From Devosia sp. (GTDB taxonomy: Bacteria > Pseudomonadota > Alphaproteobacteria > Rhizobiales > Devosiaceae), in assembly GCF_028290435.1 (NCBI RefSeq), contig NZ_JAQGJV010000003.1:1-64000 (forward strand): a DNA stretch of 64,000 nucleotides, in the 5' to 3' direction. Below are positions 15,845-27,547 of this stretch, one piece after another. Under the pieces are notes generated by a model that saw only the letters and a program-made list of their open reading frames with translations, made no database searches and was not told the origin of the DNA. The translations under genes and the position numbers were made by a program. The first letter of the stretch is position 1; every line of letters starts with the position of its first letter.

Positions 15845-15919
15845 GTGCCGGTAGCTCAGTGGTAGAGCATTCGACTTTTAATCGAATGGTCGAGGGTTCG
15901 ACCCCCTCCCGGCATACCA
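15845..15919 (+). tRNA. tRNA-Lys(UUU), integration target of the island
   Basis: Complete cloverleaf: acceptor GTGCCGG pairs with CCGGCAT, D-arm GCTCAGTGGTAGAGC, anticodon stem TTCGA/TCGAA with loop CTTTTAA (anticodon TTT), T-arm GAGGGTTCGACCCCC, and an encoded CCA. Its 3' part from the anticodon stem onward is repeated 11.6 kb away, showing it is the attachment site of the adjacent element. The element restores the gene, so it stays intact. Confidence 0.96.
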
Positions 15920-15921
15920 AT
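15872..15921. repeat. attL: 50-bp direct repeat in tRNA-Lys
   Basis: Bases 15872-15921 are identical to 27498-27547 over 50 positions, from CGACTTTTAATCGAATGG through the encoded CCA plus AAT. Both flanking bases differ, so the repeat ends are exact. This is the tRNA-side attachment site. Confidence 0.95.
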
Positions 15922-16066: not shown

Positions 16067-16948
16067 TCAAACGGAGCGTTGTCCGGCGACTTTTCTCAGA
16101 GCTGCAGCAACCCGGCGGCGGGCCCGCCAGGCCCGCAGGTATCCAAATACTGGTATTCTCCCCGAGACACTTGGAACTGCTTTAGAAAAGTCATAACCAT
16201 TTACCGTTGCCTCGAGGGAAAAAACTGCATCCTCGATCGCACGAGATATCTTAAGGCAGTGCGCACGCAATTCAGCGCAAAGTGTCACGTTGGTCGATGT
16301 AAGGTCCCCTGGCGCCTCGGGACCGTTGGAGGGCCCCATGACGTCCACAGAGCTCGTGACGGCGGCTAACGAAATCCCCTCGCTGTTTGCTTCGGAAACT
16401 ACGTCCACTGGACGCCCCATTCCGTTAGCCACCAAAATCAACATGTTGTCGTAGCTTTTTGAGAATTCTTCCGCAAAGGTTGGGACTTGGTCGCTCCACT
16501 CAGGCGCCCATTCTTGCGCCCATGTCTTCACGCGCTTCAGCCGAGCATGAAAGCTATGGGCAGCACCTAAGGTCCGAAACCTAATCGTCTCCAACACAGA
16601 GCCGATTTGCACCTCCGGCCCGAGCAGAGCCAGTACCGACTCCCCCAACTCGTCGAATGAGGATGCAACGACATTTAAGGGCGCGACTACTTGGCGAAAT
16701 TCGTCCTGAACGAACTTGCGTTTAGTGGAGATGTCTCGATCCCGACCATATTGCAGCGTGGCATAATAGTAAGAAAACGCCGTCAGAAGTGCAAAAAGCG
16801 CCAGAGTAGGAGTGGCATAATCAATCAGGCTGAACGACGGACTGACCTGGGATTGTGATGAGCACACAAAGGCACTGCCCCCGCTCGCTAAGCTGTCATT
16901 GACGACGGATGCTGCCTCCGCCGGGACGCGGCAGAGTTGGGTAGCCAA
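16067..16948 (-). CDS. Single-pass membrane protein of unknown function (third gene of cargo cassette)
   Basis: A 293-residue protein starting at TTG directly after the TAA of the preceding gene, with GGGAG upstream at good spacing. Residues ~40-63 are one membrane helix (IDYATPTLALFALLTAFSYYYA). A soluble region follows with helical segments and a C-terminal basic patch (LRAWRARRRVAAALRKVAGQR). No family is recognised. Position suggests co-expression with the STAS-like and GHKL ATPase proteins upstream, and a membrane effector or sensor role is only a hypothesis. Base composition is clearly lower in GC than the flanking chromosome. Confidence 0.72.
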   Translation of the reverse strand: MATQLCRVPAEAASVVNDSLASGGSAFVCSSQSQVSPSFSLIDYATPTLALFALLTAFSYYYATLQYGRDRDISTKRKFVQDEFRQVVAPLNVVASSFDELGESVLALLGPEVQIGSVLETIRFRTLGAAHSFHARLKRVKTWAQEWAPEWSDQVPTFAEEFSKSYDNMLILVANGMGRPVDVVSEANSEGISLAAVTSSVDVMGPSNGPEAPGDLTSTNVTLCAELRAHCLKISRAIEDAVFSLEATVNGYDFSKAVPSVSGRIPVFGYLRAWRARRRVAAALRKVAGQRSV

Positions 16949-17284
16949 TTAGTGGCTCCCGGCGACAGACCTGCTAATCATGACGCGATCGATGCCTTCT
17001 AAGATATCGTATCTCAGGCCTTCGGACAGCCGAGACAGAGAGTAACGCTTCAGGAAAGCTTCTTTGCCACCCAAGGTTCTGACGCTGGGGCCAAACATGC
17101 CCTGTACGAAAGACGGAGTTATGCTCCGAAGAGTTTTTGGCGCGGCAATCTCGATGAAATCGGACGAGCCGTCCAAAGCGTCGACGTGATAATGTTGACG
17201 CGCAGCCTCACCACGAGGGCGCCCAATTAAGGTGTCGACCCTGTCGTTAAGCAAGTCTTGGAGATCAATCATTACTATCGCCAT
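16949..17284 (-). CDS. STAS-like (DUF4325-type) protein
   Basis: A small protein of about 111 residues. The segment FIEIAAPKTLRSITPSFVQGMFGP resembles the core of the STAS-like DUF4325 family, in which a strand is followed by a turn with Ser/Thr and the helix with conserved Phe. Such proteins are often found beside GHKL ATPases and are thought to act like anti-sigma-factor antagonists. The start at 17284 overlaps the upstream ATPase gene by 20 bases; ATG 17272, overlapping its stop in ATGATTGA, is an alternative. The family call is by eye. Confidence 0.65.
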   Translation of the reverse strand: MAIVMIDLQDLLNDRVDTLIGRPRGEAARQHYHVDALDGSSDFIEIAAPKTLRSITPSFVQGMFGPSVRTLGGKEAFLKRYSLSRLSEGLRYDILEGIDRVMISRSVAGSH

Positions 17285-18719
17285 TGCTGGATGCCCTGAG
17301 GTATGCCTCATCCACTGTGAACGCCATAGTTATAAGCGTTCCTTGAAGTTTACCTGGCAGCGCGTGCACATAACGTAAATCTGGAGGAGTGTCACGGTGA
17401 TTTTCCGGATTGAACCAGATCGTTCGCGGCGGCGGCTTCCCAGGATCGAAGTCGGTGAAGTCTAGTTGCCCCTTAACGTATGCTTCTTTGAACTGGATGC
17501 AAGTGGAACCGGACACGATAGCCATGCCGCCAATGGCCGTGCTCGGGTCGGCATTTGCAGAAAGGGCGGCATAGAATTGCAATACGTCCTGCAGTCCTGT
17601 GCCCCCGATGTTGTTTTCGAATGCTTTTGCATCGCTCGTCACACCATCCTGAAGAGCAAAGATAGTGGCAAGCATCTCTGGTGTGTAAGGGCCATTCCTA
17701 AGATGCTGACCTACATACCGATTTAACGCCCTTTGGGTGTCTGGCGCACAAGTGCGCATGCTTTCCGCAATGGTTTCCCCTGGGCTGAAGAGAGCCAAGT
17801 GGAAAACATAACGCTCTTCGGTCTCAATCTCTCGGCGAGAGACAAAACCAGCCAAACTCCAGTTTCCATCGCCTTTGGCGTCGCTATGCTGCTCGGCATT
17901 ACCGAGCGCTTCACCTAGCATCTTAGCAGCCAAACGTTCACCCTGCACAGAAAGTCTTACCTTCGCCATCCGAGAGAGCCAACGATTAACCGTGTCAACC
18001 AGTGTCTTCGTTGCTTTCTCAGCATGCGTAGGGTCGAGCTGTGCGCGTGCCGACTTGGTCATGCCCGGCGGGCGCCGTTGTTGAAGCCTTAAGGGCCAGA
18101 CGTTGTCCTTCTCAGGATCTCTTTTGCGCATTCTCATTTGCATTGCCTTGTCTAGGCCCAGCAAAATGAAGACGTTCCGAATAGAGTCTGAGATCGCTCC
18201 ACCATGAAATACGGATATCATCTGCACCTTCATAGCATTCAGGATCAAATATGCCCCAATGTCTAAGCACTCATCATCGCTAAAATTAAGCATAACGTTC
18301 GCATTTCTGCATTCGGCGATGGCAATCTCTTGCAACACGCCCATTGTTTCCACTGGGTTGGATACAAACGAAAAACCATTGAGATCAATTTCAAGTCTTT
18401 CCGTAGATCTATGTATAAATCCCTTCCAGATTTTTTTTCTGTCCGGATGCATTCCGTTCAATAGTGGATGATCTTTATAGGCACAAATTAGCAGAGATTT
18501 GTCGAAGGACTTTGCTCCGCCAAGATACCGGCGGCGGAAATACGACCTAACTTTGTTTTGTGCGTAGCGAGGTATATTGCGTTTCTCGGAGGCTTTTCCC
18601 TCTGTAACCGCGCCCTGGCTCAATCTCAGCTTGGCCTTTAGCTGGCGGAGCTCAGCTCGGATTGTCAATATTTCATGGGCTGAAAACCCCATGAGCCTTA
18701 ACCGTAGATATTCGCTCAC
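17265..18719 (-). CDS. GHKL (HATPase)-domain protein with N-terminal STAS-like region
   Basis: A 484-residue protein starting at GTG after GGGAG. Residues ~108-195 look STAS-like (MLNFSDDECLDIGAYLILNA, then VFILLGLDKAM). Residues ~255-410 resemble a GHKL ATPase: N-box EALGNAEQHS (E270, N274, H278), a weak G1-like LFSPGETI where the usual Asp is absent, and a G2 box GGTGLQDVL (372-380). It lacks a DHp/His-phosphorylation helix, so it is not a classical sensor kinase; a partner-switching kinase or ATP-gated switch is more likely. It heads a three-gene cassette with overlapping STAS-like and membrane genes and has its own promoter upstream. The host of this element is unlikely to be its source given the low GC. 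Confidence 0.68.
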   Translation of the reverse strand: MSEYLRLRLMGFSAHEILTIRAELRQLKAKLRLSQGAVTEGKASEKRNIPRYAQNKVRSYFRRRYLGGAKSFDKSLLICAYKDHPLLNGMHPDRKKIWKGFIHRSTERLEIDLNGFSFVSNPVETMGVLQEIAIAECRNANVMLNFSDDECLDIGAYLILNAMKVQMISVFHGGAISDSIRNVFILLGLDKAMQMRMRKRDPEKDNVWPLRLQQRRPPGMTKSARAQLDPTHAEKATKTLVDTVNRWLSRMAKVRLSVQGERLAAKMLGEALGNAEQHSDAKGDGNWSLAGFVSRREIETEERYVFHLALFSPGETIAESMRTCAPDTQRALNRYVGQHLRNGPYTPEMLATIFALQDGVTSDAKAFENNIGGTGLQDVLQFYAALSANADPSTAIGGMAIVSGSTCIQFKEAYVKGQLDFTDFDPGKPPPRTIWFNPENHRDTPPDLRYVHALPGKLQGTLITMAFTVDEAYLRASSNGDSND

Positions 18720-18981: not shown

Positions 18982-19818
18982 TCAGTCGGCACGCGGAGCA
19001 AAAGCTTCGGGTGGGTAAATTGTCTCGAGCAAATCACGCATTGGTCCACCGGGCATATACTTCAGCATTTTGAAATTTGTTAGCAGCACAGAGAAATCTT
19101 TAGAAACGTCGGAGAGGCCATTGAGTGCCGCCAGTGTGACCTCGTGTCCGTTCAATTGGCTTCTAAGCAACTTGCTCATGCGGATTTTATCTTCCTCGGG
19201 CAAGATTTTGTCGCTGCGCAATCGGTCGAGCATTGTGTAGATAACGCGGAAATAAGGTCCCATCCCTGTTTCCCCCTTGGCAAGGACGAACTCAGTGTAC
19301 CAGTTCTTTAGCCGGTCACGATCGATCGGGGGGCTAGAACTCGGATACATTTCGGAGAGGGTCACTTGATCTACTACCGCCGACAACGCGGCAGCAATGC
19401 CGCCGAAGCTGCGATACGTAGCGCCCGGATGAGACCCGCCTCCGGTGTAAAAATCGATGTTTTCTCTTAGTTCGCGCATAAGTCCGAGCAACTCAAAGAA
19501 CGAACTTTCGAACCGCTCTTGATGCTGTGATTTCCGTGACTGGTCAATTTCGTCTTGCTGAAGTTTCAGGGCTTCGCTCTGCCCTTGAAAGGTGGCCAGT
19601 ACGGCAAGAAAACCAAGCATCGTGAATAAGGAGTTCAGGACGCCAAACGAGTCACCGACTTGGCCTGCATCTGAAAAGGCGCCGCCGCCAAAACTGAGTT
19701 GGCCAACGTAGCGACCAAAGATAAGCCACGCGGCCCAAATAACTAGGAAAAGAACAGCTGCAAAAAATAATATCGGAGGAAACCTGCTATAAACAGATTT
19801 AAATTTCACGGATTTCAC
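18982..19818 (-). CDS. Putative phage abortive-infection protein (AbiC-like)
   Basis: A 278-residue protein with two N-terminal membrane helices (about 14-34 and 56-77). The segment GQVGDSFGVLNSLFTMLGFLAVLATFQGQ, then a coiled linker with QQDEIDQSRKSQ, then FESSFFELLGLMRELREN (about 103-120), match the pattern of the putative phage abortive-infection family related to lactococcal AbiC. Such proteins are predicted to stop infected cells before phage release. The start is GTG at 19818, with a second GTG 9 bases in. It lies 45 bases after the preceding membrane-protein gene, probably in one operon. Confidence 0.75.
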   Translation of the reverse strand: MKSVKFKSVYSRFPPILFFAAVLFLVIWAAWLIFGRYVGQLSFGGGAFSDAGQVGDSFGVLNSLFTMLGFLAVLATFQGQSEALKLQQDEIDQSRKSQHQERFESSFFELLGLMRELRENIDFYTGGGSHPGATYRSFGGIAAALSAVVDQVTLSEMYPSSSPPIDRDRLKNWYTEFVLAKGETGMGPYFRVIYTMLDRLRSDKILPEEDKIRMSKLLRSQLNGHEVTLAALNGLSDVSKDFSVLLTNFKMLKYMPGGPMRDLLETIYPPEAFAPRAD

Positions 19819-19863: not shown

Positions 19864-20604
19864 CTAGCGTAGACCTGTCAGCTTACTAGAAACAGCATCT
19901 TGGGAGCACCTAAGAGCAGTCGCCAAATGCTCATCTGTGTCGCCGACGATATGCTCTTGCACTTCCGAAGCTAGCAGGTTTCGAAACTTCTCGTAACGTT
20001 CAAGAAACTCGGCCCCCCCGTCCCCTCTCCCCCACTGAAAGTCGCTGAAATTAAGCGAATAGCCCGCGGCTTTCGCCTGATCGAAGACGCCAATATGCTT
20101 GAAGAGGTTAGAAGCTTCTAGCTGGTCAAGCGCCTTAGCCAAATCGGGAGAGCAATAATATTGAAGCCCACGGTCGTAGATCTCCGCAATCATGTTTAAA
20201 ATCTCCCGCCGCGAGAATGACAATGAGCCTGTCCAGGGTCCTGGGGGCGCAACTGGAGCTGTTGTATGTATTTGCAGGGTGCTGATAGTTTGCGCTGCTG
20301 TTATTGAAAAAACGTCATCGGCAAATTCTCCGCGCGACGCACCGTGCAGCATCTCTCGCCAAAATTTGTTAATTCGAGCGTCTACTTGCAGGAGCTTGTT
20401 CAGAGCTAGGTACCGAAGGGGCCGTTCTCGTTGCAAGCGTTGATGCTCGATCAGGCGATCAACCCCAAAGATGGTGGCACCGATGCCAGCCATTTCCCAA
20501 AAGAGATTTCCAGCAAATTGGCCTACTACCTCGCCTGAGAAGCTAAAAATACCTGCAAGAACTAGCGCCCCTACAAAAACTGGAAATGCCCATTTCGGTA
20601 CCAT
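19864..20604 (-). CDS. Membrane-anchored protein of unknown function
   Basis: A 246-residue protein with two N-terminal membrane helices (about 5-24 and 29-48), followed by IFGVDRLIEHQRLQRER and a cytosolic region rich in charged helices. No catalytic motif is recognised. It is the first gene of a probable two-gene unit with the AbiC-like gene, 45 bases upstream of it, and shares its low-GC composition. It may be an accessory or sensor partner, which is inference from position only. Confidence 0.65.
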   Translation of the reverse strand: MVPKWAFPVFVGALVLAGIFSFSGEVVGQFAGNLFWEMAGIGATIFGVDRLIEHQRLQRERPLRYLALNKLLQVDARINKFWREMLHGASRGEFADDVFSITAAQTISTLQIHTTAPVAPPGPWTGSLSFSRREILNMIAEIYDRGLQYYCSPDLAKALDQLEASNLFKHIGVFDQAKAAGYSLNFSDFQWGRGDGGAEFLERYEKFRNLLASEVQEHIVGDTDEHLATALRCSQDAVSSKLTGLR

Positions 20605-20769: not shown

Positions 20770-22701
20770 TTATGGCGTTACGCCCGGGTTTTTCCAGAAG
20801 CCGCGGAAGTCCTGCCAGCCACCGCCGAAGTCCAAACGAACTTTCCACTCTGTTCCGTCGATATCGAACCCTGCGCGCGTATCGATTTGCGGACCTTCGG
20901 CGCCTTCCAAATAGGCAAATTCGAGTCCGCTTTGATCTCGCCCGGCCGCGAGGTACCAGGCCTGAGTGTCGGCGAGCCGTGGTTCGACCAAGAGCTCCAG
21001 CTTTCCGGAGAACGGATTTACGTCGCTGGGCTTTTCCGCGTTGATCACGGCCAAAACCTGTTCTGCGGTCAGTTCCAGATCACTTGGGACCACCAAGAAG
21101 CGCGGTATCATACCAGCGAGATCCCCGTCTGGGTTACGCTGCTTGCGCATTGCCAAGCGGCCGGCTGCGAGCGCGGCGACTGAGAGCGTTGCGCCTGAGC
21201 CAAGATTGCCATGGGTGGCGTGGAAAACCGCTGCGCCATCAGACATTTTTCGTGTCCCCTCGACCAACTTCGCAAGGAAATCGGCTTCGAAGTTCTTGGC
21301 CTTTTGGCCAAGCTCTTGCGGCAGCCGATCGAACAGGGACAGATCGTCATTAATCAGTGCTTGTCGTGTCAGACCGAAGATTTTGCCATAGGTTTCAATG
21401 GCATACAGTTCTGCACCTTCGGAGAAAGTCCCACGCTTAAACTCGCCGTGCTCATTCACCTTTTCCAGGCCGCCTTTCGTCGCCAAGAAGATGCTGGCGC
21501 GCGGCTTGAAATCCCGAGCTGTCGCCTGCCGGGCAACCTGCTGAACTGCCGAGGGAGTGGCCTCATAGCCCTTTCGCACCAAACGGTTAGCGACGTTGCC
21601 CAACGCGATCGGAAAGTCAGAACCGGTGTGCAACGCGCGTGTCACGAGTTCGCCGGCTGAACAACCGCGCGTGCCTTCGCCGCGCGCCTCGATGGCGCGT
21701 CTTGCAAGCTCTGGGATCGAAAGGCCAATGAGGCCGCGAGCGGCGTCGCTTGGTTTGTAGGTACGATCCACTCTCGCCTGAATTGCCTGGGACATGATGT
21801 CCGAAAAGGACACGTCCGAACGCTCGCCGTCGGAAGGCGCGATGCCGAAGATTTGCGTCTTTTCTTGCTCTTTACGGATGGCCTCCATGGCCATCAGGCG
21901 AAATTCAGCGATGCTGTTGCCGTCCTTAACCGCCTTGCGAATGACACGGCTTGGAACATTATGGCGTTCTCCAATTGACAGAATTTCATCAGCTCGGGAG
22001 CGCTCAAGCGTCTCGGCAGGGTCGGCAGCAATGCTGGTAGTCATATCGATATTCTCCACTTTTGCGGCAGCGCCTTCGGCGCGCCGGGTGACGGGTACGG
22101 ATTGGCGACTGCGGGTGTCTTGGGTTTCGGCGCGAGCCATCGCGCCCGCATCCGCTGGGATCGGAACAGCAGACAGCTCCAGCGGCTCCCAGCGGGTAGC
22201 GGTGAAGATCGGGAGGCTGTCGCCTTCTCCTTCGGACTTTTCATAGGCAGAAACGCGATAGCCGACGCTGATCAGCAACGGCAAACCGGCGCGGAGATCC
22301 GTGAGGATTTGCTCGCCTGATTTGGAGCTTGAAAGGATGATTGTGGCCAGGCCTTTGCCGCCCTCAATTCTGGCCGATCCGGGAACAACCGCTCCAAGCC
22401 GATCGGCCATGGACGTTTGGGCGTGAGTATCTAGAAACGACGCTCCGGCATTGAGCCGCGCCAAGTCGACCGACTCGGCCGACATCGAAAGCTGTTCCCA
22501 GTACGCGCCTTCATCCCAGGACCAGCGCTTCACGCTTGCCCCACTTGACCAGATCACCTCGACGGTGCGGGCTTCCGCGTCGAGCGAGCCAGCACGGAAT
22601 TCTGCGGGGCGAAATGCGCGATTTGTGATGGTGATCGACAAGGTTCGGCTCCAGAGATGGACACCGTTGGCCTCGGATTTCGATCGAGTGAAATCTCCCA
22701 C
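20770..22701 (-). CDS. Prohead protease / major capsid protein fusion
   Basis: A 643-residue protein. The N-terminal ~200 residues resemble a phage prohead protease: catalytic His in LDTHAQ (H93), Ser in LLISVGYRV (S145) and the trailing WEPLELSAVPIPAD. After a linker, residues ~215-640 resemble a Mu gpT-like major capsid protein (DDLSLFDRLPQELGQKAKNF, FHATHGNLGSGATLSVAAL, DQSGLEFAYLEGAEGPQIDT). Protease-capsid fusions of this kind are known in some phages and elements. The listed start is GTG; a TTG at 22641 with a well-spaced GGAG may be the true start. It would self-assemble a procapsid, but portal and large terminase are missing here. Confidence 0.85.
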   Translation of the reverse strand: MGDFTRSKSEANGVHLWSRTLSITITNRAFRPAEFRAGSLDAEARTVEVIWSSGASVKRWSWDEGAYWEQLSMSAESVDLARLNAGASFLDTHAQTSMADRLGAVVPGSARIEGGKGLATIILSSSKSGEQILTDLRAGLPLLISVGYRVSAYEKSEGEGDSLPIFTATRWEPLELSAVPIPADAGAMARAETQDTRSRQSVPVTRRAEGAAAKVENIDMTTSIAADPAETLERSRADEILSIGERHNVPSRVIRKAVKDGNSIAEFRLMAMEAIRKEQEKTQIFGIAPSDGERSDVSFSDIMSQAIQARVDRTYKPSDAARGLIGLSIPELARRAIEARGEGTRGCSAGELVTRALHTGSDFPIALGNVANRLVRKGYEATPSAVQQVARQATARDFKPRASIFLATKGGLEKVNEHGEFKRGTFSEGAELYAIETYGKIFGLTRQALINDDLSLFDRLPQELGQKAKNFEADFLAKLVEGTRKMSDGAAVFHATHGNLGSGATLSVAALAAGRLAMRKQRNPDGDLAGMIPRFLVVPSDLELTAEQVLAVINAEKPSDVNPFSGKLELLVEPRLADTQAWYLAAGRDQSGLEFAYLEGAEGPQIDTRAGFDIDGTEWKVRLDFGGGWQDFRGFWKNPGVTP

Positions 22702-22749: not shown

Positions 22750-23028
22750 TCAGGAGATCGGTTGTGTTGTTTGCTCCAAGCGGGCAACTATGACCTCGAC
22801 GGCCCGTTCGACGACGATCCGGGCGGACTCTTGGTGTTCGATGGGAAAGGTGCTTGGCGTTTCTCCTAGAGCGCTCGTGTAGGTGGCGACGATCGACGCC
22901 ATGCCCGCGGCAAAGTCTTCCCGGCTTACAAGTCCGTGCGCACTGGCTAGGGCATCGCCAATGGCACGAATTTCAGCGGGCGTAAGTCCGTACTGGCGGG
23001 CCAGGGAGGCATAGGCATCTTCGGTCAT
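22750..23028 (-). CDS. Small phage-type protein of unknown function
   Basis: A 92-residue, largely helical acidic protein (TPAEIRAIGDALASAHGLVSR). Its ATG overlaps the stop of the terminase-small-subunit-like gene as ATGA, and the capsid fusion begins 48 bases later. It is real by position and coupling. A head-assembly or scaffold accessory role is possible, but no family is recognised. Confidence 0.6.
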   Translation of the reverse strand: MTEDAYASLARQYGLTPAEIRAIGDALASAHGLVSREDFAAGMASIVATYTSALGETPSTFPIEHQESARIVVERAVEVIVARLEQTTQPIS

Positions 23029-23540
23029 GGTTGGACCCTTTTGCCGGTCAGCAACTCATCGATTTCCGGGGTCATGCGCGCTTCGAGTTGCGCTGCCGCT
23101 TGTCGGGCGATTTCACGACGTCGGGCGCGTTCGGGCTCATCCCACCCTTCACCGGCCCTCTCCCCGACTTCGATAATCCCGTTCAAAAATCCGCTTGTGA
23201 TGTCTTGAGCGATCTCCGTCAGCTCCACTCGGCCGATCAGTCCCGCCAGCTCGCGCTCGAGGTGGAGGCCAAGAAGGTCGGCCTTTCGCTTCCGCAGACC
23301 ATCGGAGGCCACCGTTAATGTCTTATGGGCGACAAAGCGGTCGATGCTTTCCAGGCGGCTGTATCGACCACTTGGAAGTTGCCGTAGCACGCCCTGGCGG
23401 GTCAGCCGGCGAACATGCCGCTCCCCGATGCCCAAAATCTCACCCATCAGGCCCGCGTCGGCCTCGTTGCGTTCAGGATGCGGATCGTTGTCAGCGTCGT
23501 AGTCGTCATCGGCGTCGAGCCAATCTTCGTAGCTTTCCAT
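23025..23540 (-). CDS. Terminase small subunit-like DNA-packaging protein (Nu1-type HTH)
   Basis: A 171-residue protein. After an acidic N-terminus (DADDDYDADNDP) residues ~28-60 form a winged-helix pattern with MGEILGIGERHVRRLTRQGV and RYSRLESIDRFVAH, as in Nu1-type small terminases. A helical oligomerisation-like region follows (LLGLHLERELAGLIGRVELTEIAQ). The ATG at 23540 is preceded by GGA at 7 bases; longer in-frame starts lack a good site. It would recognise packaging DNA, which a satellite could use to redirect a helper's large terminase. The family call is by motif pattern. Confidence 0.65.
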   Translation of the reverse strand: MESYEDWLDADDDYDADNDPHPERNEADAGLMGEILGIGERHVRRLTRQGVLRQLPSGRYSRLESIDRFVAHKTLTVASDGLRKRKADLLGLHLERELAGLIGRVELTEIAQDITSGFLNGIIEVGERAGEGWDEPERARRREIARQAAAQLEARMTPEIDELLTGKRVQP

Positions 23541-23662
23541 GGTCATTTCCTTTTGTTTTTCCAATTCTAGGCTGTCGGCTGTCGTTTTTTTTGAGCCGAA
23601 ACCGTTCATTCCTTGCGCTGCACGTTGCCCGCGGAAAGCCTGGTTGGAGGAGAACCTATAGG

Positions 23663-23674
23663 CCCCCCGGGGGG
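23663..23674. other. Perfect GC palindrome upstream of the terminase-like gene
   Basis: CCCCCCGGGGGG, with the palindrome extending weakly outward, lies 123 bases upstream of the small-terminase-like ATG in the 176-base gap 23541-23716. It is a candidate cos/packaging or regulatory site; no further evidence is visible. Confidence 0.3.
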
Positions 23675-23716
23675 TCATCGGGGACGAGAGCGCGTCACCA
23701 GGTACGCGTTCATATT

Positions 23717-23935
23717 TCATGGATCTGCACCAAGTGCCGGCCGCTGACGACCGAGCCACACGGCCGCGGTCGGCGGGTCGATATCACCGCGCACGACCTG
23801 ATGGGCCAACGCGCCAAGGCGCTTGGCCATCTCACCGTCGCCAATTTGTAGGGCGAGTCTGTTTAGGGCACTGGCATCAAGCTCGCCTAAGGGGCCCCAC
23901 ACAACGGCCGCATGGTCTTGCAACTCACGCGACAT
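23717..23935 (-). CDS. Small protein of unknown function
   Basis: A 72-residue protein (LGELDASALNRLALQIGDGE). Its ATG overlaps the end of the HTH initiator-like gene by 11 bases, a usual operon arrangement in this element. No domain is recognised, and no close second copy lies in the window. Confidence 0.5.
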   Translation of the reverse strand: MSRELQDHAAVVWGPLGELDASALNRLALQIGDGEMAKRLGALAHQVVRGDIDPPTAAVWLGRQRPALGADP

Positions 23936-24722
23936 TGGCCACTCCCACCAAGCCCGCCTGACGGAGCCAGCGCACCGTCGGTATGCGCTGGATCGCGCCC
24001 CCCTCTACCCCTGCTTGGTATGCGGCCAATCGAGCCACGACCTCCTCGCGCCCCAGTCTGTTGAGCAGGTCGATGAAGTGTGAATGCTGATGCGCATGCA
24101 ACGGCTGCCCCAAGGCTTCTTCGATCAGTGCGACCAAGCGGCCAGGGAGGCGAGCGCATTCGGGCGCGCTCGCCCTGCCCTGCCCAGACTCCGCCGTCAC
24201 CGTATCAACAAGCGCGGTGTGAGGGGCGGCGCTACGGGCGCCGCCCTCCCTATTCGATCTCTGTTCTTCACTATTAGCGCGTGCCCCCATACGCGGGTCG
24301 CGCGTGTCCGGGGACGCGAGTGGGACGTTTCCGGAAACGCGCATCCCTCCATCGGAATGCGCGTTCTCCGGAAAGCATGTCGCGCTCTTATCCGCGTGCC
24401 CCCAAACGCGCTTCCGGTGCCCGCCATCCGCGTCCCCGGGAACGCGCATGGCAAGCCGATAACGGTTGCCCCGGCCATCCTTCTCGACCTGGAGATGGCC
24501 TAGCCGAACCAATGCGGCGACCGCATGAGCGACGTTCCCACGATGCGAACCGACCAGCTCGGCAATCCGAACTTGCGACGGCCAAGCGTCCCGGGTCTCT
24601 GCGTTCAAGTGCTGGGCAATTGCGACGGCAACACGTAGCGGCACGAGCTTGACCGCGGGATCGCCGACGGCCTGGAGCACCCAAGCCGATCGCTCTACGG
24701 CGACATGTGGGGCGCCGCTCAT
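23925..24722 (-). CDS. HTH replication-initiator-like protein containing iterons
   Basis: A 265-residue protein. Residues ~25-95 form a helix-turn-helix domain typical of phage or plasmid replication proteins (RVAVAIAQHLNAETRDAWPSQ, then AELVGSHRGNVAHAVAALVR). Residues ~95-150 are low in predicted structure, and the DNA coding them holds six 17-bp iterons. The C-terminal part (LVALIEEALGQPLHAHQHS, then VRWLRQAGLVG) may be the partner-binding domain. Such an arrangement parallels lambda O, whose origin lies inside its gene. The ATG at 24722 overlaps the preceding stop as ATGA. Confidence 0.7.
   Translation of the reverse strand: MSGAPHVAVERSAWVLQAVGDPAVKLVPLRVAVAIAQHLNAETRDAWPSQVRIAELVGSHRGNVAHAVAALVRLGHLQVEKDGRGNRYRLAMRVPGDADGGHRKRVWGHADKSATCFPENAHSDGGMRVSGNVPLASPDTRDPRMGARANSEEQRSNREGGARSAAPHTALVDTVTAESGQGRASAPECARLPGRLVALIEEALGQPLHAHQHSHFIDLLNRLGREEVVARLAAYQAGVEGGAIQRIPTVRWLRQAGLVGVANVA
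24279..24446. repeat. Six imperfect palindromic iterons (candidate replication origin)
   Basis: Units of 17 bp with consensus GCGTnnnCCGGnAACGCG start at 24279, 24302, 24325, 24361, 24394 and 24430. Examples are GCGTGTCCGGGGACGCG, ACGTTTCCGGAAACGCG and GCGTCCCCGGGAACGCG. Spacings are 23, 23, 36, 33 and 36 bases. The two 23-base steps are not multiples of three, so the repetition cannot come from repeated amino acids. An AT-rich stretch (24251-24276) borders the array on one side, like a DNA-unwinding element. Confidence 0.72.
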
Positions 24723-25021
24723 GGCGTGCCCCACAAGCAGACAATGACGTCTGAGCCGCAGCCGACAATCTGTCGGAAAGTGGCAAGACGAGCGTCGTTC
24801 AGGTGTAGAGGGCTGACCACATGAATGCGGAACACCGACGCGTCCAAAGAGGCCCATGCCACCACGGCTCCCAGTTCGAGAGCAACAAGCCGGCCAGGCA
24901 TCGATCCGACAAGTTGAATTCGAAGGGAGGCGACGGTATTGTCGACGGGCTTTCCAAAGCTAATGTCATTCCCCCGGCCTGCCGCCCCAACGGCGGCCGG
25001 GGTATTCGTTTCAGGCGACAT
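24719..25021 (-). CDS. Small protein of unknown function
   Basis: A 100-residue protein. It overlaps the AlpA-like stop as TGATG at its start and the initiator-like ATG as ATGA at its end, so it is embedded in the early operon of the element. Residues ~30-100 could form a small alpha/beta fold (LRIQLVGSMPGRLVALELGAV). A GTG one codon earlier is an alternative start. No family is recognised. Confidence 0.6.
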   Translation of the reverse strand: MSPETNTPAAVGAAGRGNDISFGKPVDNTVASLRIQLVGSMPGRLVALELGAVVAWASLDASVFRIHVVSPLHLNDARLATFRQIVGCGSDVIVCLWGTP

Positions 25022-25221
25022 CACGCCGCCCCCTTCCGAGAGCGGGCAGCGTCCCAGGCATCGAGCTCCGATTGGGTCCAGTAGTTGCGCGAATGGATTT
25101 TGAAGGGGCGGGGAAACCTCAAGTTGTCATCGCCCAGCCACCGATGAATGGTCATTTTTGTAACGCTATATCGCGCCTGGACCTGAGGGCCAGTTAGGTA
25201 GGTAATTCGCTGCTGTTGCAT
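25021..25221 (-). CDS. AlpA-type excisionase/regulator (MerR-like HTH)
   Basis: A 66-residue protein with LTGPQVQARYSVTKMTIHRWL and FPRPFKIHSRNYWTQSELDAW, the pattern of AlpA/MerR-like winged helix proteins. These regulate or assist excision in P4-like and satellite elements. It heads an operon running to the small-protein and initiator genes, separated from the integrase unit by a strong terminator. Confidence 0.82.
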   Translation of the reverse strand: MQQQRITYLTGPQVQARYSVTKMTIHRWLGDDNLRFPRPFKIHSRNYWTQSELDAWDAARSRKGAA

Positions 25222-25298: not shown

Positions 25299-25886
25299 TT
25301 AGCTGACGAAGATACGACGATCCTGGAGCAGGTCATAACAAATCGCGTCGTACAGGTTGAAGTCCAGACTCCAGGTCGCTGCAAATGCCTCCCGGTCCTT
25401 CCATCCCTGGTTGACGACAGGAATGCGCTGAATGACTGGGAGATGGCGCTGATCTGGTTTGAATTTCCCGTCATCGATATGCGCCAGTCCGGCGCCAACG
25501 TGCCCACAAAGGCCTTTGAGGCTGCCAAGGTTCATCCCATTGTAGTGGCGAACTAATTCTCGAGCCTGAGAGGCGGGCTTCTTGATCTTTTTCCTCTTAC
25601 CGACAGCGCTGAAGATCAGGGTGGCGGCAACCGCCCGAGCAAGGGCATCAAGCTCTGCCGGTGTGCGATCAGTGCCATCAAAAATTACCGGTGTCATGCC
25701 GGCATCTAACGCATTTAATGCGCCGATGAGATGCTGGCCGGGGGCGCCTGCTCCGGGCGCGACCTGTTCCGCGAATGCGACTGCGCCATTCAGCCAGTTG
25801 ACTAGCGCGGCACGCTTCGCCAATCGAGTCTTAGCAGCACTAAAGGCGGCCGCTCCCTGTTCGATAAGCTCGAATTCGTCGTCCAT
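25299..25886 (-). CDS. Unknown protein coupled to the integrase
   Basis: A 195-residue protein with no recognised domain. It overlaps the integrase stop as TAATG, so it is translated from the integrase message and ends at a strong terminator. It contains a lysine-rich patch (GKRKKIKKPASQARE) and aromatic C-terminal motifs (WSLDFNLYDAICYDLLQD). A recombination-directionality or regulatory role is a hypothesis from position alone. Confidence 0.65.
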   Translation of the reverse strand: MDDEFELIEQGAAAFSAAKTRLAKRAALVNWLNGAVAFAEQVAPGAGAPGQHLIGALNALDAGMTPVIFDGTDRTPAELDALARAVAATLIFSAVGKRKKIKKPASQARELVRHYNGMNLGSLKGLCGHVGAGLAHIDDGKFKPDQRHLPVIQRIPVVNQGWKDREAFAATWSLDFNLYDAICYDLLQDRRIFVS

Positions 25887-27337
25887 TACACTGCCCCCCT
25901 GATACCGACCACGTTCCCTGAATCGCCACGAAGTGCGGACAAGAACGACTCCCAGCGCTGTCCGCCGGCCAGGATCGCATCGCTAAACTCAAGCCGCTTT
26001 TCATACTCATCGTCGGCCGCCAGGACCAACGTCTGCCAGGCGCCGTGGGAGTCTGCGTCAGCAGTAAAAAGCACATATCGCGCCCAGGCGTTGGTGGCGC
26101 GATACCTTAGTGGTTCAAGTTCAGCCCGATTGTAAACGCCAGCCACGCCCGCTCGAGAGGCCCCGCTTTTGTGGTTGAGCAGCGCGTCCACGACTGCTGA
26201 GTGTATGCCTAGCTCGGCCATCTTCGTGGCCGCGGTCCGACGCAGGTCATGAAAGGTCCAGCCTGTGACTCCGGACAATCGATCCAGTTGTGCCTTGGCA
26301 TCAGAGTAGTCGCCTACCGGCGCCAGGCCCCGACTGAACACGAACTCCCGGTCAGAGGGTAGTCTGGCAAGTTCGGCCAACATTGGCGGCGACAGGTGGA
26401 CAAGATGAGCTAGACCATTTTTCGCTCGCTCCGACGGAATGGTCCATTTTTTGGCGACGAGATCCAACTCGCTCCAAGGAAGTCGGGCGACTTCATCACG
26501 ACGCTGAGCAGATAGGATGAGCATACGGATCAAGCTAGACCAAGGCTGCCCCATGTCTTTGGCTGAATTCCAGACTCTGCGCAGTTCTTCGTCCGAAAGC
26601 ACCTTATCTCGCGATGTCTCAGGCGTTTGTCGCTCGATGCCCTCTAGTGGATTTGCCGTGGCCAACCTGGCGCGAGGCGATCGAGCAAATTGCCAAAGCG
26701 TCCGCAGGGTATTCAAAAATCGGTTTGCTTGGACGGGCGCCTGCGCATCCAGTTCCTTGATAATCTCCTCGACCCCGATCGAGTCCAAAGTCCGCGCCTT
26801 CCACCTATCGCTCAGACCTCCAGCACGGGAGGTAAAAACCAGGTCCATTGGTCGGAGGGGTGTGGCTTTATCATCGGCGGGGACGACGTATTTGATCAAC
26901 GACTGATCATGCTGCTCCAAGCCACTAGGCTTGAAGGGCACGAAGCCAAGTTGCCGGGCCACTTCCTTCCAAGTTCGATTGCCCTTCGCGATCTGGTGCC
27001 GAATAATATAGCGCCAGGCGACGGCAGGGAAATGGCGATCGCTGTCCTTATTGGCCTGCAACTCACTTCGCCTTGATGCCGCAGGATCTTCCCCTTCGGT
27101 GACGGCACGCAAAGCCTCTCTAGCTAGCGTACGCGCCTCGGCCAGCTTGATCTTCAAGGCATTTCCGAGGGTATACTTTCTCGATTTTCCGCCAAAGCGA
27201 TAACGCAGGGCCCAGCTTCGAACGCCGCTCGCCTGGATGATCAGATAGAGCCCTGGGACCGTCCCATCAGGTATTTCCTGTCGCGTCTTAGTTGCCTTGA
27301 GCTTTCCCACGGCAGCAGCAGTCAGCACCTTTGGCAT
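25886..27337 (-). CDS. int: Tyrosine-type site-specific integrase
   Basis: A 483-residue recombinase. The N-terminal DUF4102-type arm-binding domain begins MPKVLTAAAVGKLKA and includes DGTVPGLYLIIQASGVRSW and YRFGGKSRKYTLG. A core-binding domain follows. The catalytic domain shows Arg in SAQRRDEVARLPWSEL, the HDLRRTAAT box (H-x-x-R), and the C-terminal Tyr in VAGVYNRAELEP. It belongs to the P4-type family that uses tRNA genes. It is transcribed away from attR and toward the interior. Confidence 0.95.
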   Translation of the reverse strand: MPKVLTAAAVGKLKATKTRQEIPDGTVPGLYLIIQASGVRSWALRYRFGGKSRKYTLGNALKIKLAEARTLAREALRAVTEGEDPAASRRSELQANKDSDRHFPAVAWRYIIRHQIAKGNRTWKEVARQLGFVPFKPSGLEQHDQSLIKYVVPADDKATPLRPMDLVFTSRAGGLSDRWKARTLDSIGVEEIIKELDAQAPVQANRFLNTLRTLWQFARSPRARLATANPLEGIERQTPETSRDKVLSDEELRRVWNSAKDMGQPWSSLIRMLILSAQRRDEVARLPWSELDLVAKKWTIPSERAKNGLAHLVHLSPPMLAELARLPSDREFVFSRGLAPVGDYSDAKAQLDRLSGVTGWTFHDLRRTAATKMAELGIHSAVVDALLNHKSGASRAGVAGVYNRAELEPLRYRATNAWARYVLFTADADSHGAWQTLVLAADDEYEKRLEFSDAILAGGQRWESFLSALRGDSGNVVGIRGAV

Positions 27338-27497: not shown

Positions 27498-27547
27498 CGA
27501 CTTTTAATCGAATGGTCGAGGGTTCGACCCCCTCCCGGCATACCAAT
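27498..27547. repeat. attR: 50-bp copy of the tRNA-Lys 3' part
   Basis: Identical over 50 bases to 15872-15921. It lacks the acceptor 5' strand and D-arm, so it is not a functional tRNA. It marks the right boundary; DNA from 27548 on is chromosomal. Confidence 0.95.

Follow-up and report, generated by a model that had tools for sequence, protein, structure and literature searches.

Can repeats buried in the coding sequence of a putative replication initiator serve as the origin from which a small integrated element replicates? The question is raised by a 64,000-nucleotide stretch of Devosia sp. (assembly GCF_028290435.1, contig NZ_JAQGJV010000003.1, positions 1 to 64,000; hereafter the window), which contains an 11.6-kb element flanked by identical 50-bp copies of the 3′ end of a tRNA-Lys gene. 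Within this element, an O-like replication initiator gene on the minus strand (23925..24722; 265 amino acids from an internal ATG) carries an array of six dyads (24278..24446) next to an AT-rich tract. Judging from sequence comparison, we consider it very likely that these dyads are binding sites for the protein encoded by the very gene in which they lie and that, together with the AT-rich tract, they make up the element's intragenic origin of the lambda O type.

A preliminary description of this locus had placed six 17-bp palindromes at 24279, 24302, 24325, 24361, 24394 and 24430. All six are found at those positions, but they are better described as 18-bp dyads of the form CGCGT-N8-ACGCG, occupying 24278-24295, 24301-24318, 24324-24341, 24360-24377, 24393-24410 and 24429-24446. 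The arms are exact in four of the six, and each of the other two has two arm mismatches. In ascending coordinates, the start-to-start spacings are 23, 23, 36, 33 and 36 bp (36, 33, 36, 23 and 23 in the orientation of the gene). Four dyads are in the same codon frame; the pair closest to the 3′ end of the gene occupies the remaining two frames, one each. Over 4000 codon-preserving shuffles, exact GCGT-N8-ACGC units averaged 0.44 and never exceeded 3, against the 4 present in the window gene; the gene of Devosia sp. A8/3-2, introduced below, also has 4 (shuffle mean 0.99, maximum 3). When one mismatch was allowed, the pattern occurred 45 times over the whole window, compared with 59 expected; since it shows no enrichment window-wide, the signal of the array lies in the exactness of its units and in their clustering. 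The genome assembly (4.58 Mb, 99 contigs) contains 12 exact 18-mers, four of which are in the array. One of the others is an isolated seventh dyad at 23691..23708, in the gap that separates orf72 from the point where the terminase-small-like protein probably starts, and is a possible extra candidate binding site; a proposed conservation of this dyad was dropped, its best counterpart in the A8/3-2 locus having two mismatches. Past the AT-rich tract, the nearest site with at most two arm mismatches is at 23774. As a separate observation, the backwards-read form of CGCGT-N8-ACGCG has 33 copies in the assembly, compared with 12 for the motif itself.

One close homologue of the gene was found, in Devosia sp. 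A8/3-2 (CP104974.1; taken to be G062, with loci L018 and L021), a genome placed in the same genus as that of the window. The gene order there matches that of the window (integrase, orf115, initiator, orf103, terminase-small-like gene, capsid fusion). Compared with their window counterparts, the initiator is 61% identical, the capsid fusion 51%, the orf101 product 38% and the terminase-small-like protein 33%; a search for a tRNA close to the A8/3-2 element returned none. All six dyads are kept at the same columns and spacings, in three reading frames. When the two genes are aligned by codons, 46 of 48 arm bases are identical, as opposed to 27 of 48 in the unit centres and 45 of 71 between units, and both arm differences are C/T exchanges at the last arm base. 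The preliminary consensus had included a central CCGG; because the relative does not keep the unit centres, these bases fall outside the motif. Third codon positions are identical at 14 of 14 sites in the arms, compared with 41 of 92 in the helix-turn-helix (HTH) part of the gene (Fisher P 4e-5). Likewise, where both proteins have the same residue, all 11 codons ending in an arm are identical, compared with 44 of 90 ending outside the units (P 8e-4); for codons ending in unit centres the figure is 4 of 9. Taken together, the arms, frames, positions and spacing in A8/3-2 indicate that the repetition is selected at the level of DNA and not of protein, as had been proposed, and confine the conserved motif to the arms.

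On its C-terminal-coding side, the array adjoins a putative unwinding element at 24251..24276. The preliminary description had pointed to this stretch as AT-rich, and it coincides exactly with the 26-bp window of highest AT content in the gene (69%, compared with a mean of 34%). In both the window gene and its A8/3-2 homologue, the AT maximum of the gene directly follows the array. Beside the tract lies a GC-rich perfect inverted repeat (24224..24246) with 9-bp arms and a 5-base loop, which is part of the 34-nt stretch calculated, with RNA parameters, to fold most stably in the gene. The strongest fold comes after the AT-rich tract in both relatives (codon-shuffle P 0.005 and 0/200).

Profile scans of the initiator against Pfam and PHROGs used the 310-residue open frame (23925-24857), which starts upstream, at 24857. 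They yielded an N-terminal HTH_36 match (3.4e-6; 27.2 bits, with a cut-off of 25) and a match to phrog_391, "replication initiation O-like" (1.4e-5), bearing out the N-terminal HTH domain read from the letters earlier. The initiator thus displays, at its N-terminus, the winged-helix/HTH domain by which the lambda O type is recognised. From the HTH pattern, we infer that the segment HRGNVAHA may be the recognition helix. This segment is identical in the window and A8/3-2 proteins and differs in the more distant G075, described below, whose repeats differ too; such covariation is consistent with a protein-site pair, in a comparison of three sequences only.

Arrays of this kind are not confined to the two close relatives. 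We surveyed 30 O-like genes, being those returned as loci, and not all matches, by a phrog_391 search of 136 family genomes, with start codons picked by a simple rule. Repeat pairs (12 of 14 bases, direct or inverted) were counted in the densest 180 bp and compared with 200 codon-preserving shuffles. Repeat pairs exceeded every shuffle in 17 of the 30 genes, as well as in the window gene and its A8/3-2 relative; some relatives are counted repeatedly among the 17, L068 being almost the same as L069 and L051, L054 and L056 apparently akin. For 15 of the 17 genes, the repeats are densest in a stretch that starts 190-290 bp into the gene, past the HTH-coding part. Of 22 control open reading frames (ORFs) of 480-1150 bp, taken from the 41 longest non-overlapping ORFs of the window and unverified as genes, a single one was significant, namely the initiator gene itself.

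The dyad sequences vary from gene to gene among the O-like genes. Their spacing was read from seven genes with dyads clean by eye (L050, L057, L060, L063, L064, L068 and L071); 14 of the 16 spacings are 22-24 or 33-36 bp, values that occur in the window array. Left out were the near-copy L069 and genes with irregular, short or overlapping repeats (L047, L048, L049, L051, L052, L054, L056, L065, L075 and L090). The best AT window just 3′ of the array is the gene-wide maximum in 7 of the 17 other significant genes, with three ties. It lies within the top 5% in L054, L056, L057, L064, L069 and L071, a ranking of little weight given the roughly 75 positions tried, and is not outstanding in L047, L052 and L075. 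These windows were 30 bp long for 12 genes and 26 bp for the rest, with L065 unscored.

Searches farther afield returned few relatives. Single-sequence protein pattern scans of IMG/VR and of an 84,980-species collection gave no homologue; a pattern built from both sequences aligned recovered Devosia sp. A8/3-2 alone among genomes and nothing in IMG/VR, and tblastn of phages and plasmids found no initiator homologue. Beyond the window genome and A8/3-2, protein and profile searches gave distant matches only, in 7 of 136 family genomes (including G075), 6 of 397 order genomes and 5 of 385 class genomes. Inspection of these matches, five class loci left aside, led us to discard L007 and L010 as off-target frames whose ORFs read as other proteins, and L017, which has no O-like frame. 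At the G075 locus (L019), a capsid fusion (56%, tblastn) lies near an O-like gene (41% over 83 amino acids); among four further ORFs compared with the window and A8/3-2 sets, a match was obtained for the integrase only (2.5e-4, to the window integrase). The O-like gene of G075 has different repeats of its own in the corresponding part of the gene, significant in the repeat-pair test; its short motif GGTGT/ACACC taken alone is not significant (P 0.066). The preliminary description had named homologous genes lacking the repeats as evidence against its proposal. This is not the case, as the one close homologue keeps six units and G075 has repeats of its own.

At the DNA level, a three-unit pattern matched 2 of the 136 family genomes, the hits being the window gene and its homologue, and, among the 2.9 million contigs of IMG/VR, one contig, L090. 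The match there lies inside a gene (L090:3710-4684) with HTH_36 (9.3e-6; residues 22-76) and replication-initiation (3.2e-8) profiles. Its repeats start about 30 residues past the HTH domain, and large GC-rich palindromes lie in the linker-coding stretch. The family O-like genes and L090 therefore resemble the window gene in having an HTH domain followed by a repeat-bearing linker-coding stretch; they differ in that unit sequences are not the same between genes.

Several results weigh against an intragenic origin of this type. The close homologues number one only, and its gene (L018:11727-12532) is damaged 3′ of the array by a TGA and a frame change; the six units are still recognisable, but with the 3′ part damaged the array there may be a relic. 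With one mismatch allowed, the excess of units over codon shuffles is modest (P 0.039 for the window gene and 0.022 for the relative). Repeat pairs do not rise above all shuffles in 13 of the 30 O-like genes. With a laxer statistic (11 of 14 bases), covered bases give P 0.27 for the window gene and for its homologue, hence no separation; by pair counts under the same statistic, the window gene reaches 150, compared with a shuffle maximum of 114. In G075, automatic tests of the region 3′ of the array detected no AT-rich tract and no significant hairpin. Finally, AlphaFold on the two initiator sequences returned a predicted local distance difference test score (pLDDT) of 38, so the fold is known from profiles only.

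Of the other explanations for the array, the one that survives best is that it is an operator, through which the HTH protein mainly autoregulates its own operon from inside the gene, with no role in origin function. The HTH domain is indeed generic, and there are weak matches to regulator families (PaaX at 0.03 in Pfam for the window protein and a MarR-family PHROG at 0.09 for the A8/3-2 initiator). The exact site at 23691, in the gap before the terminase-small-like gene, also occupies the usual place of an operator; that extra site, however, is not kept in A8/3-2. The best profiles of the protein are those of replication initiators, the six phased copies lie deep in the gene beside its AT-richest stretch and a hairpin, and arrays are present in many O-like genes. 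We therefore regard a purely regulatory array as improbable, although the two functions could coexist. Less probable still is a packaging site of the pac or cos type, or a site for an excision protein, read by the terminase-small-like protein or an excisionase. The terminase-small-like gene does lie less than 1 kb away, but its product is only 33% identical in the relative, where the arms are 96% identical, and O-like genes that were picked without reference to terminase genes carry arrays in this same linker. That the units are no more than a consequence of repetition in the protein linker or of a GC-rich choice of codons, as four units sharing a frame with similar peptide motifs and codon shuffles averaging 3.3 units with at most one mismatch might suggest, is scarcely credible given that the two units in other frames are conserved too, that arm third positions are invariant, that none of the 4000 codon shuffles reached four exact units and that exact 18-mers are so few in the assembly.

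Array conservation, the AT-rich tract and the context of the gene family thus support the plan that the preliminary description had likened to that of lambda O, with the origin lying in the initiator gene. Under this interpretation, once the element is excised the protein would use its HTH domain to bind the 18-bp dyads as a dimer. The dyads lie roughly two or three helical turns apart, which would place the dimers in a stack along one side of the double helix; in this arrangement they would wrap the DNA and melt the adjoining AT-rich tract, and a replicative helicase would be recruited by the C-terminal part of the initiator. As no helicase, loader or primase is recognisable in the scanned ORFs, this machinery would come from the host, in the form of DnaB, or from a helper phage.

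The element itself is bounded by a left attachment repeat (15872..15921), which is identical over 50 bp to the right copy and forms the 3′ part of an intact tRNA-Lys (TTT) gene (15845-15919), and by a right attachment repeat (27498..27547), a copy of the tRNA-Lys 3′ end beside the integrase gene. Between the two copies, the gene order is integrase, orf195, a short ORF that we take to be AlpA-like, orf101, initiator, orf72, terminase-small-like gene, orf92, protease-capsid fusion and cargo. The tyrosine integrase (25886..27337, minus strand) matches Phage_integrase (4.9e-14), Arm-DNA-bind_3 (8.5e-18) and phrog_1 (1.1e-45). Directly upstream of the initiator lies orf101 (24719..25024, minus strand) and downstream of it orf72 (23717..23935, minus strand), both without a family match; each has a homologue in L018, at 51% over 66 amino acids for orf101, at the same place, and at 59% over 68 amino acids for orf72 (both tblastn). 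The terminase-small-subunit-like gene (23025..23759, minus strand) is assigned on a weak match (phrog_57, 0.085); its L018 homologue matches phrog_57, terminase small subunit, at 1.1e-4. A fusion of head-maturation protease and major capsid protein (20770..22701, minus strand) matches phrog_4523 (1.3e-191) and Phage_capsid_4 (4e-52).

Thirteen ORFs of the element were scanned, ten of them with Pfam and PHROGs, orf72 with both, and 16067-16948 and 16949-17311 with Pfam only. Nothing with the profile of a large terminase, portal, tail, helicase, primase or loader turned up among the 13, in agreement with the preliminary description, which had recognised no primase or helicase. No P-like loader was recognised by profile in orf72, orf101, orf195, orf92 or the orf115 and orf103 of L018, although loaders diverge widely and small unassigned proteins are present. 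Its gene content and attachment repeats make a phage satellite, presumably mobilised by a helper phage, the most likely reading of the element; judged from the window copy alone, a decayed prophage is a less likely alternative. Relatives of the protease-capsid fusion occur in 15 of 136 family genomes, including that of the window, and some of these perhaps belong to full prophages. The cargo includes a putative phage abortive-infection protein (18982-19818; putAbiC, 4.1e-14), which adjoins function-unassigned genes at 17265-18719 and 19864-20604; together, the three are possibly an anti-phage module of the element.

Among known systems, the closest likeness is to lambda O. Both have an N-terminal DNA-binding initiator domain, imperfect inverted-repeat iterons in the middle of the gene (19 bp in lambda, 18 bp here) and an AT-rich tract beside the array. 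In lambda, the gene for the helicase loader P lies beside the initiator gene; no P-like loader is recognised in the window element. The window gene moreover resides in an 11.6-kb satellite-like element and not in a complete phage. Excerpts of PMC7466680 report six iterons for the Shiga toxin (Stx) phages P27 and 933W, describe O as acting as a dimer and name P together with O; excerpts of PMC8951638 mention HTH_36 proteins in Stx phages and, within those excerpts, make no mention of iterons.

Comparison with known satellites shows a different layout. Phage-inducible chromosomal islands (PICIs) share with the window element an integrated state with an integrase, an initiator of their own and a terminase-small-like gene; according to the portion of PMC6092414 consulted, their origins lie 3′ of rep and have two iteron sets flanking an AT-rich region. 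In contrast, the window element has a single iteron set, inside the gene and on one side of the AT-rich tract. Assignment to the PICIs was rejected, as the two flanking iteron sets 3′ of rep are absent and no primase (pri) profile is found in the 13 ORFs. Capsid-forming PICIs carry a full head and packaging set of their own with large terminase and portal. This class was set aside as well, since the 13 ORFs offer only the capsid-protease fusion and the weak terminase-small match, and so was a P4-like satellite, for which no alpha-type primase/helicase profile is present in them. In the PICI-like elements (PLEs), as far as the sections consulted of PMC7145576 describe them, a RepA_N initiator acts at a noncoding origin (NCR3) and a helper helicase is needed. 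There, too, a satellite initiator lacks predicted helicase or primase activity and the iterons are semi-palindromic, whereas the RepA_N fold and the noncoding-region origin of PLEs differ from the HTH_36 domain and intragenic array in the window. Primases are carried by phage-inducible chromosomal minimalist islands (PICMIs; PMC10803314, in part) and by the AH14b satellite (PMC4936722, in part).

The principle of an intragenic origin is already known, and the element itself is satellite-like; neither a satellite with a lambda-type intragenic origin nor the window element was found among the open-licence full texts searched. We put forward tentatively, and with somewhat less than even confidence, the joint proposal that the element and its Devosia relatives form a satellite lineage with a lambda-type intragenic origin, without a helicase loader of its own and with a C-terminal domain that captures the helicase directly. 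The compact C-terminal domain would then capture host DnaB or the loader and helicase of a helper phage, and initiator, origin and unwinding element would be united in one unit of about 800 bp, a minimal one-gene replicon of the lambda type.

If the gene does hold the origin, the whole replicon could be cloned as one gene and tested in a single step. Its layout sets the element apart from PICIs, whose origins follow another arrangement, and raises the testable question of which helicase is captured by a satellite that has no loader. The dyad arrays of L050, L057, L060, L063, L064, L068 and L071 provide a ready set in which to follow the joint change of initiator and site. As the local-repeat test marked one of the 22 window ORFs and more than half of the O-like genes, it could nominate candidate origins in unstudied phages and satellites of the Alphaproteobacteria.
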